Assembly (NCBI RefSeq): GCF_002874775.1
Contig: NZ_CP020991.1
Location: forward strand, 1,183,225-1,247,224
Direction of reading: 5' to 3'
DNA: 64,000 bases
DNA from: Monoglobus pectinilyticus
Lineage (GTDB): Bacteria; Bacillota; Clostridia; Monoglobales; Monoglobaceae
Shown: positions 7,095 through 20,964 of the stretch, piece after piece
Layout: each line of letters opens with the position of its first letter
Position numbering within the stretch: the first letter of the stretch is position 1
Translations under genes and position numbers: made by a program
Notes under the pieces: generated by a model
Databases searched by the model: none
Told to the model about the DNA's origin: nothing
The model's input: only the letters and a program-made list of their open reading frames with translations

Positions 7095-7319
7095 AGTATT
7101 ATATAAAAATATAATATAAAATTTATTATAATAATGTTTTAATATATTAGTCTAAATTATTAAAAATTATAAATTTATTTTTTTCTAATTGTTTTTTGAA
7201 AATAATAAAATATAATTATTAATATGTTTAATAATTAAACAGCTACCTTACATTAAATAAAATTTCTTTTATTGTATATAACCTTTATATTAACATATTT
7301 TTATAACTTTATCTAAATT

Positions 7320-8007
7320 AATTCTGTTATCCATGACTGCGCACCTAACGAGGCGTCTGCCGCCGCCCTGCCGATGTTTGCTGAAAATTATCTTATTTTT
7401 TTATAGTTCTCAATTTTAATTATATCATTTTTTCTTTTTACTCCTATCCATTTAAAATGGAGCTAGTAATTTTCACTAGAAAACAGTCTCATATATTTAT
7501 TATTTATTGATTATGATTTTACCTAAATAATTCTGTTATCCATGACTGCGCACCTAACGAGGCGTCTGCCGCCGCCCTACCGATGTTTGCTGAAAATTAT
7601 CTTATTTTTTATAGTTCTCAGTTTTAATTATATCATTTTTTTTTTTACTACTATCCATTTAAAACGGAGCTGATAATTTTCGCTAGAAATCGAAATCACT
7701 CTTATATATTTTTTCTTATCGTTTATGATTTTACCTAATAATTCTGTTATCCATGACTGCGCACCTAACGAGGCGTCTGCTGCCGCCCTGCCGATGTTTG
7801 CTGAAAATTATCTTATTTTTTATAGTTTTCCTTTTTAATTATATTATTTTTTTTATTACTATTCATTTAAAACAGAGCTGCTAATGTTCGCTAGAAATCA
7901 CTCTTATATATTTTTTCTTATCGTTTATAATTTTACCTAATAATTTTACTATCCATGACTGCGCACCTAACGAGGCGTCTGTCGCCGCCCTGCCGATGTT
8001 TGCTAAA
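7320..8007. repeat. Family A hairpin repeat, four direct copies (7320-7398, 7529-7608, 7740-7818, 7943-8007)
   Basis: Four near-identical GC-rich units of about 65-80 bp lie at roughly 205-bp spacing in AT-rich DNA. Core: GCGCACCTAACGAGGCG, a short variable arm, then CCCTGCCGATGTTTGC and AAAATTATCTTATTTTT. Linkers between units are also related (TTTATGATTTTACCTAA and similar). No open reading frame crosses them. The core can form a short GGCG/CGCC stem. The same flanks recur at 36.6, 38.6 and 62.6 kb, so this is a dispersed family, not a local duplication. Confidence 0.9.
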
Positions 8008-8144
8008 AAAACTTTATTATTATTTTTATAATTATTAATTTGTTTATATTAGATGTTTAATTACATAAATAATATTTAATAATTATAGGTGTATAACCAA
8101 AATTGTTACTAAATATAATTAATTAGTAAAAATAAAATGTTTTT

Positions 8145-8208
8145 AGTAAACATCGGCAGGGCGGCGGCAGACGCCTCGTTAGGTGCGCAGTCATGGATAA
8201 CAGAATTA
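8145..8208. repeat. Family A hairpin repeat, inverted copy
   Basis: Reverse complement of the 7.3-8.0 kb units: AAACATCGGCAGGGCGG through TTAGGTGCGCAGTCATGG to AACAGAATT. The adjacent linker (8209-8248) is also the inverse of the linker near 7490-7530. The block therefore has direct copies facing an inverted one, and could fold into a very long hairpin. Confidence 0.88.
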
Positions 8209-8255
8209 TAAGGTAAAATCATAATCAATAAATAATAAATATATTAAGATTATAT

Positions 8256-8315
8256 CAGCAAATATCGGTAAAGCACCGATAGGTACCTCTTTAGGTGCTC
8301 AGTCTCAGAAAACAG
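8256..8315. repeat. Divergent family A-like repeat with an ATCGGT/ACCGAT stem
   Basis: Keeps the flanks CAGCAAATATCGG and TTTAGGTGCTCAG, but the central arm is different. ATCGGT (8264-8269) pairs exactly with ACCGAT (8275-8280), followed by the palindrome AGGTACCT. Same orientation as the 8145 copy. Confidence 0.75.
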
Positions 8316-8370
8316 AAATAGCTTATGTAAAACCATAATAAATTAATTTCAAAGATATTAAAATTGTTTT

Positions 8371-8430
8371 CAGCAAACATCGGAAGAGCTCCGATAGGTA
8401 CCTCTTTAAGTGCGTAGTCTCAAAAAGCAG
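8371..8430. repeat. Divergent family A-like repeat with an ATCGGA/TCCGAT stem
   Basis: Sister of the 8256 copy: ATCGGA (8379-8384) pairs with TCCGAT (8390-8395), again followed by AGGTACCT and then TTAAGTGCGTAG. Relative to the 8256 copy both stem arms carry the matching change (T-A to A-T), so pairing is kept. Confidence 0.75.
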
Positions 8431-8498
8431 AAAATAATGTATATAAACTTTAATAATCTACAACATTAATTAAAGCTCTAATTTAATATATTTACAAA

Positions 8499-17929: not shown

Positions 17930-18340
17930 TTATTTAAATATTTTGCTGTCAATTGTTTTTATTGTTGTTTTATCCAGATAGTCTTTACATGAATAATTTA
18001 AGTTTTCAACAATGTCGTCCATAATTCCGGCCATACCTGAGGCTATTAAACAATCCATATCATCATCGCCGCTGTGCCAATTAAGACAGACAGTTTTTTC
18101 ATTTATAGCGTCGAGTATTTGACCTAGAGATATATTTTCTTTTTTGTCTGATAAAATATAACCCCCGTCAAGGCCTTCCTGAGACTTTACAAGACCTTTT
18201 TTCTTAAGCATTGACATAACTTTTCGGACGCGCGTAGGATTAGTGCAGATATTTTCAGCTAATTTTTCACTTGATACAGTTTCACCTTTATGGTTTAGAT
18301 AGACTAATGCGTGAACAGCTACACAGAAATTTCCCGTCAT
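17930..18340 (-). CDS. Rrf2-family transcriptional regulator
   Basis: 136 residues with an N-terminal winged helix (TGNFCVAVHALVYL, CTNPTRVRKVMSMLKKKGLV, GLDGGYIL). A Cys-containing segment at about 90-112 (C-L-N-W-H...D-C-L-I) recalls the Fe-S or thiol-sensing loops of IscR, NsrR and RsrR relatives. The start is set at the second ATG (18340), preceded by AGGAGTAACGAA; the first ATG (18358) lacks a site. Lies upstream of, and on the same strand as, the CcdA-TlpA and SUF genes, which makes them its probable targets. Confidence 0.9.
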   Translation of the reverse strand: MTGNFCVAVHALVYLNHKGETVSSEKLAENICTNPTRVRKVMSMLKKKGLVKSQEGLDGGYILSDKKENISLGQILDAINEKTVCLNWHSGDDDMDCLIASGMAGIMDDIVENLNYSCKDYLDKTTIKTIDSKIFK

Positions 18341-18399
18341 TTCGTTACTCCTATTCATTATTTATAAACTGTGACTTTTTGAAATACAATTATACTGTG

Positions 18400-18428
18400 A
18401 CTATAACATATACAGTTAGTGTTGTCAA
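18400..18428 (-). promoter_or_regulatory. Promoter and possible operator of the Rrf2 gene
   Basis: TTGACA, 17 bases, TATAGT on the minus strand. The spacer and -10 carry an imperfect inverted repeat (ACTAAC...GTTATAGT) that could be the Rrf2 operator. The promoter is seen; autoregulation is inferred. Confidence 0.72.
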
Positions 18429-18680
18429 TAGTACTTTTAAAAAATTTCATAATTTAATAAAAAATTTTTATGTTTTGAATTAAGTTGTATAAGAACAGTA
18501 TGTTTTGTATTTCAAATTAAATAATTGTTTTTTTTATATTAGTTTTTTTAAAAATTATCAAATTTTAAGTTTAGTTTTTTGACAAAATAAAAATTTTAGT
18601 ATGAAATTGACTTCATAATAGATCTTTAGTATGTATTTCAATCATTTTAGATAAAATAAGTATTTAAGGAGGTAAAAAAT

Positions 18681-19535
18681 ATGATAACTGCTGAGGAAAG
18701 AATAATAAGGTCAGAAAAAATTAAAGAATATGAAGTTTATTTAATGGAACAAGAAAAAAGCTTGTCAACAATAAGAAAGTATATACAAGATATAAAAAGA
18801 ATGTATAAATATTTTGAAGAAAAAGAATTGAGTAAGATACTGCTTATTGAATGGAAAAAGCTATTGGCAGAAAGTTATTCCGCTTCAAGCGTTAATACAA
18901 TATTAGCTGCTGCTAACGGTTTTTTAGAATATAACGGTTGGGTCGATTTAAAAATAAAACCGTTAAAGATTCAGAAAAATATATTTTGCGATGAGAAAAA
19001 AGAATTATCTAAAAACGAATATTTTAGATTAATTAAGACTGCTGAAAAATTAAATAATAAAAGACTATCTCTTATTATACAAACTATATGTGCTACAGGA
19101 ATTAGGGTCTCTGAGTTAAGTTATATAACTGTTGAAGCCGTTTATAAAGGTAAAGCAGAAATTAACAATAAAGGAAAAAGAAGAATAATATTTATTCCTG
19201 TAAAACTTTGTAAAATTTTAAAAATATATATAAAAAGACAAAGCATTTCAAAGGGATGTATCTTTATAACAAAGAGCGGAAAACCAATAGACCGGTCAAA
19301 TATATGGAGAGAGATGAAAAATTTATGTGAAGAGTCAGGAGTAAAATCAGAAAAGGTTTTTCCACATAATCTCAGGCATCTTTTTGCAAAAATATATTAT
19401 TCAGAAGAAAAGGATTTATCAAGGTTAGCCGACATTTTAGGACATACAAATATAAATACAACGCGGATATATACCATGGAAAGTGGTTCGGTTCATCTAA
19501 GACAGCTTGATAAGATGAACTTAGTTATCACATAA
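18681..19535 (+). CDS. Tyrosine recombinase (Xer-like site-specific integrase)
   Basis: 284 residues, the size of XerC/XerD, with no extra domains. The N-terminal SAM-like core-binding domain (about 10-95) has SLSTIRKYIQDIKRMYKYFEE. The catalytic domain has ATGIRVSEL (Arg about 142), a beta-hairpin lysine in NKGKRR, PHNLRHLF (His/Arg), LGHTN and the nucleophile Tyr in RIYTM (about 264). All six catalytic positions are present. Ribosome site AAGGAGGTAAAAAAT. The last codons and the stop lie inside a 22-bp inverted repeat whose partner is 252 bp downstream, so the enzyme probably inverts the adjoining segment. Housekeeping XerC/D cannot be excluded, but the context argues for a dedicated invertase. 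Confidence 0.93.
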   Translation: MITAEERIIRSEKIKEYEVYLMEQEKSLSTIRKYIQDIKRMYKYFEEKELSKILLIEWKKLLAESYSASSVNTILAAANGFLEYNGWVDLKIKPLKIQKNIFCDEKKELSKNEYFRLIKTAEKLNNKRLSLIIQTICATGIRVSELSYITVEAVYKGKAEINNKGKRRIIFIPVKLCKILKIYIKRQSISKGCIFITKSGKPIDRSNIWREMKNLCEESGVKSEKVFPHNLRHLFAKIYYSEEKDLSRLADILGHTNINTTRIYTMESGSVHLRQLDKMNLVIT

Positions 19536-19551
19536 TTTTGATTATGTTGTA
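19530..19551 (+). repeat. Left inverted repeat of the putative invertible segment (dif-like core)
   Basis: 22 bp, exactly complementary to 19804-19825. Its core is ACATAA, six bases (TTTTGA), TTATGT, the layout of a Xer/dif crossover site (two inverted arms around a 6-bp spacer). It overlaps the recombinase stop codon, so inversion would not alter the protein. Confidence 0.88.
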
Positions 19552-19594
19552 TCTATTTAAATAATTGAATAACTATGTGACTAATTTCAATATT

Positions 19595-19624
19595 ATTATA
19601 ACATAATTGTTTATTTGATTACAA
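19595..19624 (-). promoter_or_regulatory. Candidate promoter inside the invertible segment, now pointing away from the HATPase-like gene
   Basis: On the minus strand TTGTAA, 18 bases, TATAAT. In the present orientation it reads back towards the recombinase. After inversion it would face the gene at 19862. The region is AT-rich, so the call is tentative. Confidence 0.4.
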
Positions 19625-19672
19625 GTTAATAATATAAAATTTTACATATTTTTTAAAATAGACAACATAAAT

Positions 19673-19704
19673 AAGCAGAATGAATATATATTTTTATTCC
19701 GCTT
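19673..19704 (+). terminator. Terminator-like hairpin inside the invertible segment
   Basis: AAGCAGAAT (19673-19681) pairs with ATTCCGCTT (19696-19704) with one mismatch, followed by GTTTGTT. In the present orientation it would end the recombinase transcript. Confidence 0.5.
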
Positions 19705-19803
19705 GTTTGTTATGCAAAAATTTATTAAATTGTATCTAAATTATTATTTATAAAAAATAATAATAATTTTTGTTATAAAAAATAATACTTTATGGCAAGT
19801 TAT

Positions 19804-19825
19804 TACAACATAATCAAAATTATGT
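19804..19825 (-). repeat. Right inverted repeat of the putative invertible segment
   Basis: 22 bp, exact reverse complement of 19530-19551. The two enclose 252 bp (19552-19803), a size typical of phase-variable promoter segments. It lies 36 bases before the next gene. Confidence 0.88.
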
Positions 19826-19861
19826 AGTTATATTATTTAAAAGTATAAAGGGATGGATATT

Positions 19862-20341
19862 ATGAATTTTGAAGAGAAAAAAGATTTAGAGGTTAATAAA
19901 CTTGAAATAAAAGAAAATTTGTTTGATATGCAAAAACTTATTCTGCGACTTAAAAATCTTATAAAAATTATATCTGAAGAACAAAAAAATTTTTATAAAA
20001 TAGAAGTTTCTTCAAAGATTAATGACTTTTATATAGGGAATGAAAAAGAACTGGAACATGTGCTTATTAAATTTTTTGTAGGAGCTGTAAAATATTTAAA
20101 AGAAGCGGAATATCTTGTTTTTAGTATTGGTGTAAATAAGTTTACAACTAATAAAGATGAAATCTATTTTATAATAAAAGGTATAGAAACAAGTAATAAA
20201 AATAAGAATTACAATAAAAATTATGAATGGTTAAATTCTATAAAAGATTCTTTAAAAAAATTAGATGGTAATGTTAATATAAAACAAGGACTTAACAGTG
20301 GATATACTTTTATGCTAAGCATACCATTAAAAAATAAATAA
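19862..20341 (+). CDS. Degenerate histidine-kinase-type ATPase-like protein, candidate target of the DNA switch
   Basis: 159 residues from the ATG at 19862; AAAGGGATGG nine bases upstream acts as ribosome site, and the ATG at 19853 overlaps it. The pattern follows a HATPase domain: an N-box-like helix (KELEHVLIKFFVGAVKYLKEAEYLVFSIGVN), a strand where the G1 box should be (IYFIIKG), and a C-terminal GLNSGYTFMLSIPL like the G2 box and last strand. The expected N-box Asn and G1 Asp-x-Gly are missing, so ATP binding is doubtful. No transmitter His or membrane span. It could be an anti-sigma or kinase-derived regulator (inference). Confidence 0.65.
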   Translation: MNFEEKKDLEVNKLEIKENLFDMQKLILRLKNLIKIISEEQKNFYKIEVSSKINDFYIGNEKELEHVLIKFFVGAVKYLKEAEYLVFSIGVNKFTTNKDEIYFIIKGIETSNKNKNYNKNYEWLNSIKDSLKKLDGNVNIKQGLNSGYTFMLSIPLKNK

Positions 20342-20417
20342 TTTTATAATTAAATAAATTTGGTGCGGTTTTTTAAAACTCAATCAATAGTAATCAGCAA
20401 ATTATTTGCTTAATCTA

Positions 20418-20741
20418 TTAAAGAGACTTTAGTTCGGAAGGTCTATTCCAAATAATTGTGCCATTTTCATTAGAAATTTTTTCAGGAATATTTTTTAATG
20501 TTATTTCTATACAGTTATTATATATTTTAACAGAGTTATCGTTTCCTTTATGCAATATCTTAACTTCGTGAACGACGGCAGCATACTCACCAATGTAATC
20601 ATCATCTTCAGGCTCAGTATCAGTCTCAAATATACCTGTAAAAGATCTGCATTTGACTTTAAGTCCATTATCCTATTCGATAATCTGTTTAAAATAATGT
20701 TTAAATATAGGTAATAATTTATTATATTGTTTATTTTTCAT
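20418..20741 (-). pseudogene. Small acidic protein gene interrupted by an in-frame amber codon
   Basis: Start ATG at 20741 with a good site (AAAAAGGAGAGTTATAT) and one open frame of 107 codons to the TAA at 20418-20420, except for a TAG at codon 23 (20673-20675). The part after the stop reads cleanly: GIFETDTEPEDDDYIGEYAA and IYNNCIEITLKNIPEKIS. A single substitution would restore it. Family not recognised; the compact acidic character recalls immunity-type proteins (weak). Probably a recent pseudogene; a sequencing error is possible. Confidence 0.6.
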
Positions 20742-20964
20742 ATATAACTCTCCTTTTTATTTTTTTTAATTTCATCATTCATTTTGGCATTGCTGGTACA
20801 ATATGTGCATTACCTTTATTGTCATAGTGGATTGTTTTTTAAGTAATTTAACTATTAAGTTTGTTTTATATATAAAAAATCATATTTATCTAATATATTT
20901 AAGGACATGGTTCAATAAGCCTTCAAGCAGCATAATTATATTATGGGCAAAGGAGGTGTTAAAA

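Follow-up and report, generated by a model that had tools for sequence, protein, structure and literature searches.

A predicted invertible promoter switch beside a Xer-type tyrosine recombinase in Monoglobus pectinilyticus and its relatives in the Clostridia

A stretch of 64,000 nt of Monoglobus pectinilyticus (NZ_CP020991.1, 1,183,225 to 1,247,224; hereafter the window, from whose start all positions below are counted) contains what we read, with a probability of about 0.87, as a cis-dedicated phase-variation cassette. Very probably a short segment is turned round by the enzyme encoded beside it, and a signalling-type gene is thereby switched on and off. The original prediction of an invertible switch at this place is strongly supported, as an inverted repeat is found behind the recombinase in 105 of 118 loci, the spacers of the paired sites match in 78 of 78 and homologous segments lie in opposite directions in 15 pairs. 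The sites, the matching of their spacers, a promoter-like motif at the position usual in the family and the occurrence of both orientations among relatives are read directly from the sequence. The features of the locus are as follows.

18681 to 19535, plus strand: Xer-type tyrosine recombinase, putative invertase, 284 aa (Pfam domains and invariant residues)
19530 to 19551, plus strand: left recombination site, with the core ACATAA-TTTTGA-TTATGT at 19530 to 19547; provides the stop codon of the recombinase
19552 to 19803, no strand: putative invertible segment, 252 bp, 14% GC
19595 to 19624, minus strand: candidate promoter TTGTAA-18-TATAAT with extended -10 (TG), by consensus and family position; faces the recombinase
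19667 to 19710, no strand: strong hairpin, central in the segment (plus strand -15.9 kcal/mol, z -5.3; minus strand -10.2 kcal/mol, z -3.9)
19804 to 19825, minus strand: right recombination site, an inverted copy, with its core at 19808 to 19825
19862 to 20341, plus strand: output gene, 159 aa (or 162 aa if read from the ATG at 19853), with weak matches to kinase catalytic domains

The two arms form a perfect inverted repeat, each 22 nt long, 100% complementary and with 252 nt between them, and the recombinase stop codon TAA (19533-19535) is the TAA of the left ACATAA, that is, it lies inside the left repeat. Both points had been noted at the outset, as had the core, which was given correctly; its spacer, TTTTGA, is present in both sites and recurs inverted in the right arm. 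By chance, with loops of 60-600 nt, perfect inverted repeats of up to 16 nt arose in a set of 50 first-order Markov sequences, each 64 kb long. The exact 22-mer occurs at these two places only in the whole 2.76-Mb genome; allowing 3 mismatches adds three further places, which are unpaired. The perfect core ACATAA-N6-TTATGT is found at four places in the genome, where the two sites of the window are the only matching pair, and a comparison of the window repeat with viral contigs gave no matches. Long inverted repeats are not unique to the place of the switch, since a second, unrelated set is found in the window at 7.3-8.4 kb. In this array (7316-8433), which has a glycogen synthase-like gene on one side and a small cupin-like frame on the other (assigned by eye), direct copies of a unit of ~86 nt (83-98% alike, ~208 nt apart) are followed by reverse copies.

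The gene directly before the repeat pair encodes, as originally proposed, a complete Xer-type tyrosine recombinase of 284 aa. Both Xer-type parts are present, an N-terminal SAM-like domain (Phage_int_SAM_1, PF02899, 2.3e-7) and a catalytic integrase domain (Phage_integrase, PF00589, 7.6e-27) with the invariant R-H-R-H-Y. The residues concerned, R142, H229, R232, H255 and Y264, which we take to be the catalytic residues of a tyrosine recombinase, are invariant in an alignment of 24 members. The best relatives of solved structure are an XerC-like recombinase, XerA and XerD. The protein was rejected as the chromosomal XerC or XerD, its scores being below the equivalog cut-offs (111.1 vs 329.6 bits for XerD and 105.3 vs 335.15 bits for XerC). 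The match to the XerA model (134.8 bits, cut-off 220) is also far below cut-off, and those to the NCBI 'tyrosine-type DNA invertase' models (3.5e-6 and 9.1e-6) are far under theirs. The genome holds no second close copy of the recombinase, the next match being 27% identical.

A scan of one genome per species returned 36 relatives of the recombinase, 34 of them close. The 24-member profile matched in 15 of 38 genomes of the bacterial family (E <= 1e-40), in 65 of 391 genomes drawn from the class (E <= 1e-50) and in 11 of 398 genomes drawn evenly from the phylum. The relatives are scattered across many families of the class, and seven sit in contigs classed as viral. The class search listed 101 places, 9 of which were left out of the sample. 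The common frame for all comparisons is 139 loci (the window, L003-L005, L036-L069, L080-L082 and L084-L181), while L070 and L071 (27-28% identity), L001, L002, L006-L035, L072-L079 and L083 were left out; dropping 7 duplicates gave 132 loci, 118 of which have at least 500 nt after the recombinase.

Absence of the repeats beside orthologues of this recombinase had been named as what would count against a switch; they are present in 105 of the 118 non-duplicate loci, the window counted. A site pair with matching spacers is found in 97 of the 118, by a scan that favours matching spacers, and L166, L167 and L170-L173 have an inverted repeat of a different motif, 14-26 nt long. Downstream of the recombinase, 13 of the 118 loci have no clear repeat, and in one of these, L057, a degenerate pair was seen by eye. 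In L060 and L064, which are counted in addition to the 97, the left site of the pair lies within the end of the recombinase gene, so that the last residues of the enzyme would differ with orientation, a possible feedback on the invertase.

Evidence from the spacers is taken solely from an unselected count of 78 loci, as the pair-picking scan favours matching spacers. Among the 118 loci, 78 have exactly two perfect CATAA-N6-TTATG sites, fifteen have three, seven have one and 18 have none. The spacers match at 6 of 6 positions in inverted orientation in all 78 two-site loci; these loci use 56 different spacers, none of them palindromic, and the spacers of different loci are identical in 1.5% of ordered pairs. 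Elsewhere the site is scarce: the upstream DNA contains a single copy in 158,932 nt, and the more distant downstream DNA two in 279,665 nt. Strand exchange by a tyrosine recombinase requires an identical overlap, and an asymmetric overlap makes inverted sites invert. With spacers that are identical and asymmetric and lie inverted, recombination would invert the 252-bp segment and could not simply delete it.

All three spacers agree in 13 of the fifteen three-site loci. The third site, in direct orientation and with the same spacer (L003, L048, L082, L084, L109, L117, L119, L126, L127, L128, L132, L136 and L141), lies 32-34 bp from one member of the pair in 8 of the 13 loci and could make small deletions possible or serve as an accessory binding site. 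Twenty further loci played no part in defining the motif, and here a downstream repeat of at least 14 nt is present in 18 and a perfect CATAA pair in 3. An upstream control in these loci gave nothing of at least 14 nt except in L188 and L201, for which the control is invalid, the locus starting too near the gene. Their differing arms (ACATAA-TTCTGT, ACAAAA-TTTTGT and others) indicate that in distant relatives the arms co-vary with the enzyme, and that not every member uses the CATAA motif.

Segments from related loci were set against one another, those scoring at least 55 bits being taken as alike. The 42 homologous pairs comprise 27 in the same direction and 15 in opposite directions relative to the recombinase. 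The class of the promoter, described below, is opposite in 15 of the 15 opposite-direction pairs; for the same-direction pairs, both members were classified in 23, all agreeing, and 4 were unclassified. The DNA behind the switch encodes a homologous protein in 6 of the 15 opposite pairs, the amino acid identity of the outputs being 93% over 154 aa for L044/L065, 77% for L088/L115, 61% for L088/L136, 45% for L114/L115, 39% for L114/L136 and 36% over 72 aa for L115/L124. Homologous segments lying opposite behind the same recombinase gene indicate that the segment has flipped during evolution. The comparison of orientation in related genomes that accompanied the original prediction thus came out in its favour at the level of species, both orientations occurring in the 15 opposite-strand pairs.

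A promoter candidate pointing away from the output gene had been proposed within the segment. The motif TTGTAA-18-TATAAT with its TG exists, but promoter-like sites in general are no commoner around this AT-rich locus than in shuffled sequence (25 in 18300-20900 vs 23.4 in shuffles), and a promoter aimed at the neighbouring gene in one orientation is predicted here from the consensus together with the family position. The best -35/-10 score is at least 12 in 66% of 103 segments vs 0.6% of base-shuffled interiors, the shuffles for promoter scores and hairpins preserving base composition only; the window promoter scores 11.5, with a family mean of 12.0. By a placement filter of 40-70 bp, 92 segments were oriented, 60 as OFF and 32 as ON, an excess of OFF with a binomial p of 0.005 if the loci are assumed to be independent. 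The end of the -10 is 41-68 bp from the end of the faced site in these 92 segments. That of the window promoter is 64 bp from the end of the faced site core, within the family cluster at 62-68, and by the family placement rule it faces the recombinase. The assembled state is accordingly read as OFF, in agreement with the earlier suggestion. After inversion, transcription would start ~95 nt ahead of the ATG at 19862, judging from the mirror position.

The hairpin that had been described as terminator-like is present at 19667-19710, but a classical GC-rich terminator was not found in 18300-20900. Strong hairpins, by a chosen score, occur in 30% of the 92 oriented segments vs 4% of base shuffles, and the central hairpin is possibly a two-way transcription stop or an insulator. 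The hexamer TATGTA was observed between the -10 and the site, on the strand of the transcribed direction, in 44 of the 92 oriented segments vs 6.4 in dinucleotide shuffles, while TACATA, on the reverse strand of the same interval, gave 4 vs 4.9. No role as an accessory half-site is claimed for TATGTA, which is absent from the window and loose in its positions.

The distances from the end of the -10 to the site are not spread evenly over the 92 segments; they fall at 41-46 (16 segments), 49 (1), 52-57 (47) and 62-68 bp (28). Without the 40-70 filter, 64 of the 68 segments scoring at least 12 still lie at 40-70, with one value (50) in the trough and outliers at 10, 21, 21 and 243. The periodic vector of the promoter-to-site distance is 0.72 at 10.5 bp, against maxima of 0.32 for smooth and 0.35 for uniform nulls, and it is 0.76 (p ~1.6e-7) after thinning on an 85-row recombinase tree (patristic distance > 1.0, n=27). 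The distance class changes at least 20 times on this quick tree, although the well-supported branches by themselves force only 3-4 changes per class. The core-to-core distance of the sites is periodic as well, with a vector of 0.64 at 10.5 bp in 80 segments of 200-300 bp (null maximum 0.38) and of 0.47 (p 0.004) when thinned to n=25; the full set of 103 segments (119-453 bp) gives 0.50 at 10.5 bp and a best period of 10.3. Within ~3 bp of the 10.5-bp ladder, the position of which was fitted on the same 80 segments that it describes, lie 76 of the 80 site spacings, about two thirds being expected by chance. The promoter ladder is tighter than the site ladder in the same 78 segments (0.74 vs 0.64).

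A 230-285 bp loop is torsionally stiff, and sites must face each other to pair, which would explain the site-to-site ladder. The promoter ladder could in part be a by-product of the loop ladder, because insertions and deletions must keep the loop in phase. We lean, by a small balance of probability, towards a portable one-enzyme, one-switch cassette of the Clostridia with its own 6-bp spacer at each locus, in which the distances of both sites and promoter are held on the 10.5-bp ladder, the site ladder reflecting the torsional cost of the loop and the promoter ladder reflecting recombinase and RNA polymerase on one face of the DNA.

The output gene has a ribosome-site-like stretch, AAAGGG, ahead of it at 19847. 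Its protein has no Pfam match at E 0.001, and at 0.1 only SH3_17 appears, below cut-off. Weak matches were obtained to the catalytic-domain region of the genome's own hybrid histidine kinase in L077 (24%, 3.7e-5), to the ArcB model (5.1e-4, far below cut-off) and to ethylene receptor 1 (chain 4pl9, 6.1e-4). These span the catalytic-domain region only, and the residues of the N, G1 and G2 boxes look lost by eye when set beside the own kinase. The output, a stand-alone protein, appears to resemble a degenerate histidine-kinase catalytic domain and seems, by eye, to lack a phospho-accepting helix and clear ATP boxes; its single-sequence model is poor (mean pLDDT 52), and a search of the other 11 genomes in the genus gave no match to it. 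It probably modulates a two-component, c-di-GMP or chemotaxis pathway. Behind the output gene, a minus-strand frame with an internal stop (20430-20745) is possibly a decayed gene, as judged by eye.

The window recombinase forms a clade with those of L182, L183, L184, L190, L191 and L145 (SH-aLRT 98, quick tree). The output of L183 is a response regulator-GGDEF gene with a PilZ gene after it (Pfam), that of L145 a chemotaxis receptor (Pfam) and that of L190 a GGDEF-EAL gene (by eye), while the outputs of L182, L184 and L191 (3 of the 7 members) were not recognised. Where its outputs are recognisable, the clade thus appears to drive signalling genes. Across the family, the first gene was taken as the output, a rule of thumb that may err in places, which gave 95 outputs from 103 segments. 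Pfam families in the 83 outputs scanned include, among the best 25 of 65 families, TetR (11), SPFH (7), LRR_5 (6), YpsA SLOG (4), FliE (2), SLH (2) and many singletons, and PADLOC gave TIR and restriction-like matches. The TIR gene, at L142:2671-4212, encodes a TIR domain of the CAP12/Pycsar type together with a cupin domain; it stands behind a predicted invertible promoter and is a possible phase-variable defence gene. In L056 and L069 the recombinase and switch lie directly before fliE in a flagellar gene cluster, suggesting phase-variable motility. Placement before so many unlike genes points to a plug-in switch.

From these features we infer catalysis by the enzyme, switching in the strain, an effect on expression and the function of the output. 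The recombinase would bind the two palindromic sites, pair them and recombine the strands within the identical 6-bp spacers of both, thereby inverting the segment, which carries one outward promoter and the central hairpin. In the ON state the promoter would face right, and transcription would cross the right site and enter the gene at 19862. In the OFF state, as assembled, the promoter would face left, leaving the output gene without it, and the transcript would run antisense into the tail of the recombinase gene.

Other explanations of the repeat were weighed against this switch. It could have arisen by chance, or act purely at the level of RNA as a terminator or attenuator after the recombinase, given that each site is palindromic and that a hairpin occupies the middle of the segment; but 22 nt exceeds the length expected by chance, and hairpins formed by the sites would need no matching of their loops, whereas the spacers match across 78 loci, so that we consider this next to impossible. 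The recombinase might instead serve a small mobile element as its integrase or resolvase, the repeats being the ends of that element. The scatter of the relatives over many families of the class, the presence of an SPFH-type output in both main recombinase clades (L045 and L133) and the seven relatives in viral-classed contigs would all agree with such an element. So would the genomic surroundings: the CcdA-like neighbour protein is found in 1 of 12 genomes of the genus, and the tested neighbours lack conservation across the genus, so that no empty site can be read. The transporter neighbour protein has a match in 12 of 12 genus genomes, and in 10 of the 11 besides the window's own the match is close (65-81%); no tRNA lies within the stretches around the transporter in those 10. 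The repeats, however, lie wholly on one side of the recombinase and in the window enclose no gene of at least 70 aa, their spacers match in inverted order, and homologous segments occur in reversed direction after the same recombinase gene, all of which makes a mobile element very improbable.

A switch that is locked or very slow in this strain, with a real apparatus that inverts rarely, deserves more weight, though it too is unlikely. The spacing of the window sites, 278 bp, is 4.7 bp off the ladder, one of only 3 in 80 that are out of phase, and the window segment has the lowest GC of the 80 segments; spacing and AT-richness are thus off the family norm, and being out of phase this copy could be slow or locked. 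Against long disuse stand the identical arms and spacers and the intact frame and invariant residues of the recombinase, features that would be expected to decay before long if the sites were unused. AT-rich DNA may, moreover, have a shorter helical repeat that restores the phase, although in the family the ladder has no dependence on GC (Spearman -0.06, 80 segments). The off-ladder spacing itself points to slow flipping or else to DNA whose helical repeat, at 14% GC, is shorter.

Invertible promoters moved by tyrosine recombinases, as the cis-dedicated cassette of the window is read to be, are already known. In the fim switch a promoter is inverted between short inverted repeats by the adjacent tyrosine recombinases FimB and FimE, but these belong to another recombinase subfamily, the window protein falling far under the 'tyrosine-type DNA invertase' cut-offs. 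Nearer in kind is inverton group 139, which is described in the accessible text of PMC11892184 as having 32 of its 33 members in Clostridia and being strongly linked to invertase group 35, with shifts of orientation in cultures recorded by reads; coordinates given there place 14-bp and 26-bp repeats 227 and 205 bp apart. Like the window family, group 139/35 is of the Clostridia and has short segments and a tyrosine-type recombinase near nearly every inverton, and the two are likely the same when compared by class, size and arrangement only. Spacer matching, promoter placement and a helical ladder are not mentioned for group 139/35 in that portion of the source.

The RecV switches of C. difficile (flg, cwpV and cmr) are alike in their tyrosine recombinase and their short, mostly intergenic invertible segments, according to excerpts of three reports (PMC5903667, PMC9286219, PMC7446863), which also describe the separate pdcB switch, an invertible promoter driving a signalling gene. 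In the same excerpts RecV is a master recombinase for several sites and only Cdi7 has a recombinase nearby; the window has one enzyme beside one site pair, in a genome with no other perfect-core pair, the comparison being one of enzyme and arrangement. Inversions in Clostridia are mostly beside signalling and chemotaxis genes in the extracts of PMC5903667, and one in Anaerotignum propionicum, beside an MCP gene, is similar in kind of output to L145 (MCP) and L183 (GGDEF), the likeness being one of output. A search of the open-licence PMC literature found no report of a spacer census or a helical ladder, and the ladder may be a new quantitative property of the cassette family.

The cassette predicts phase-variable genes from sequence alone, for organisms that have no read data: a recombinase match together with a CATAA-N6-TTATG pair with matching spacers gives the switch, its probable state and its output. 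The same design of switch stands ahead of flagellar, biofilm-type, TetR, SPFH, SLOG, TIR and c-di-GMP/chemotaxis genes. The ladder amounts to ~80 natural measurements of the limit that DNA twist sets on short-loop recombination. If the proposed origin of the two ladders is true, the site-to-site ladder would be a record, from living cells, of what it costs in torsion to close a loop of 230-285 bp, and either recombinase binding would tune transcription or transcription would tune flipping.
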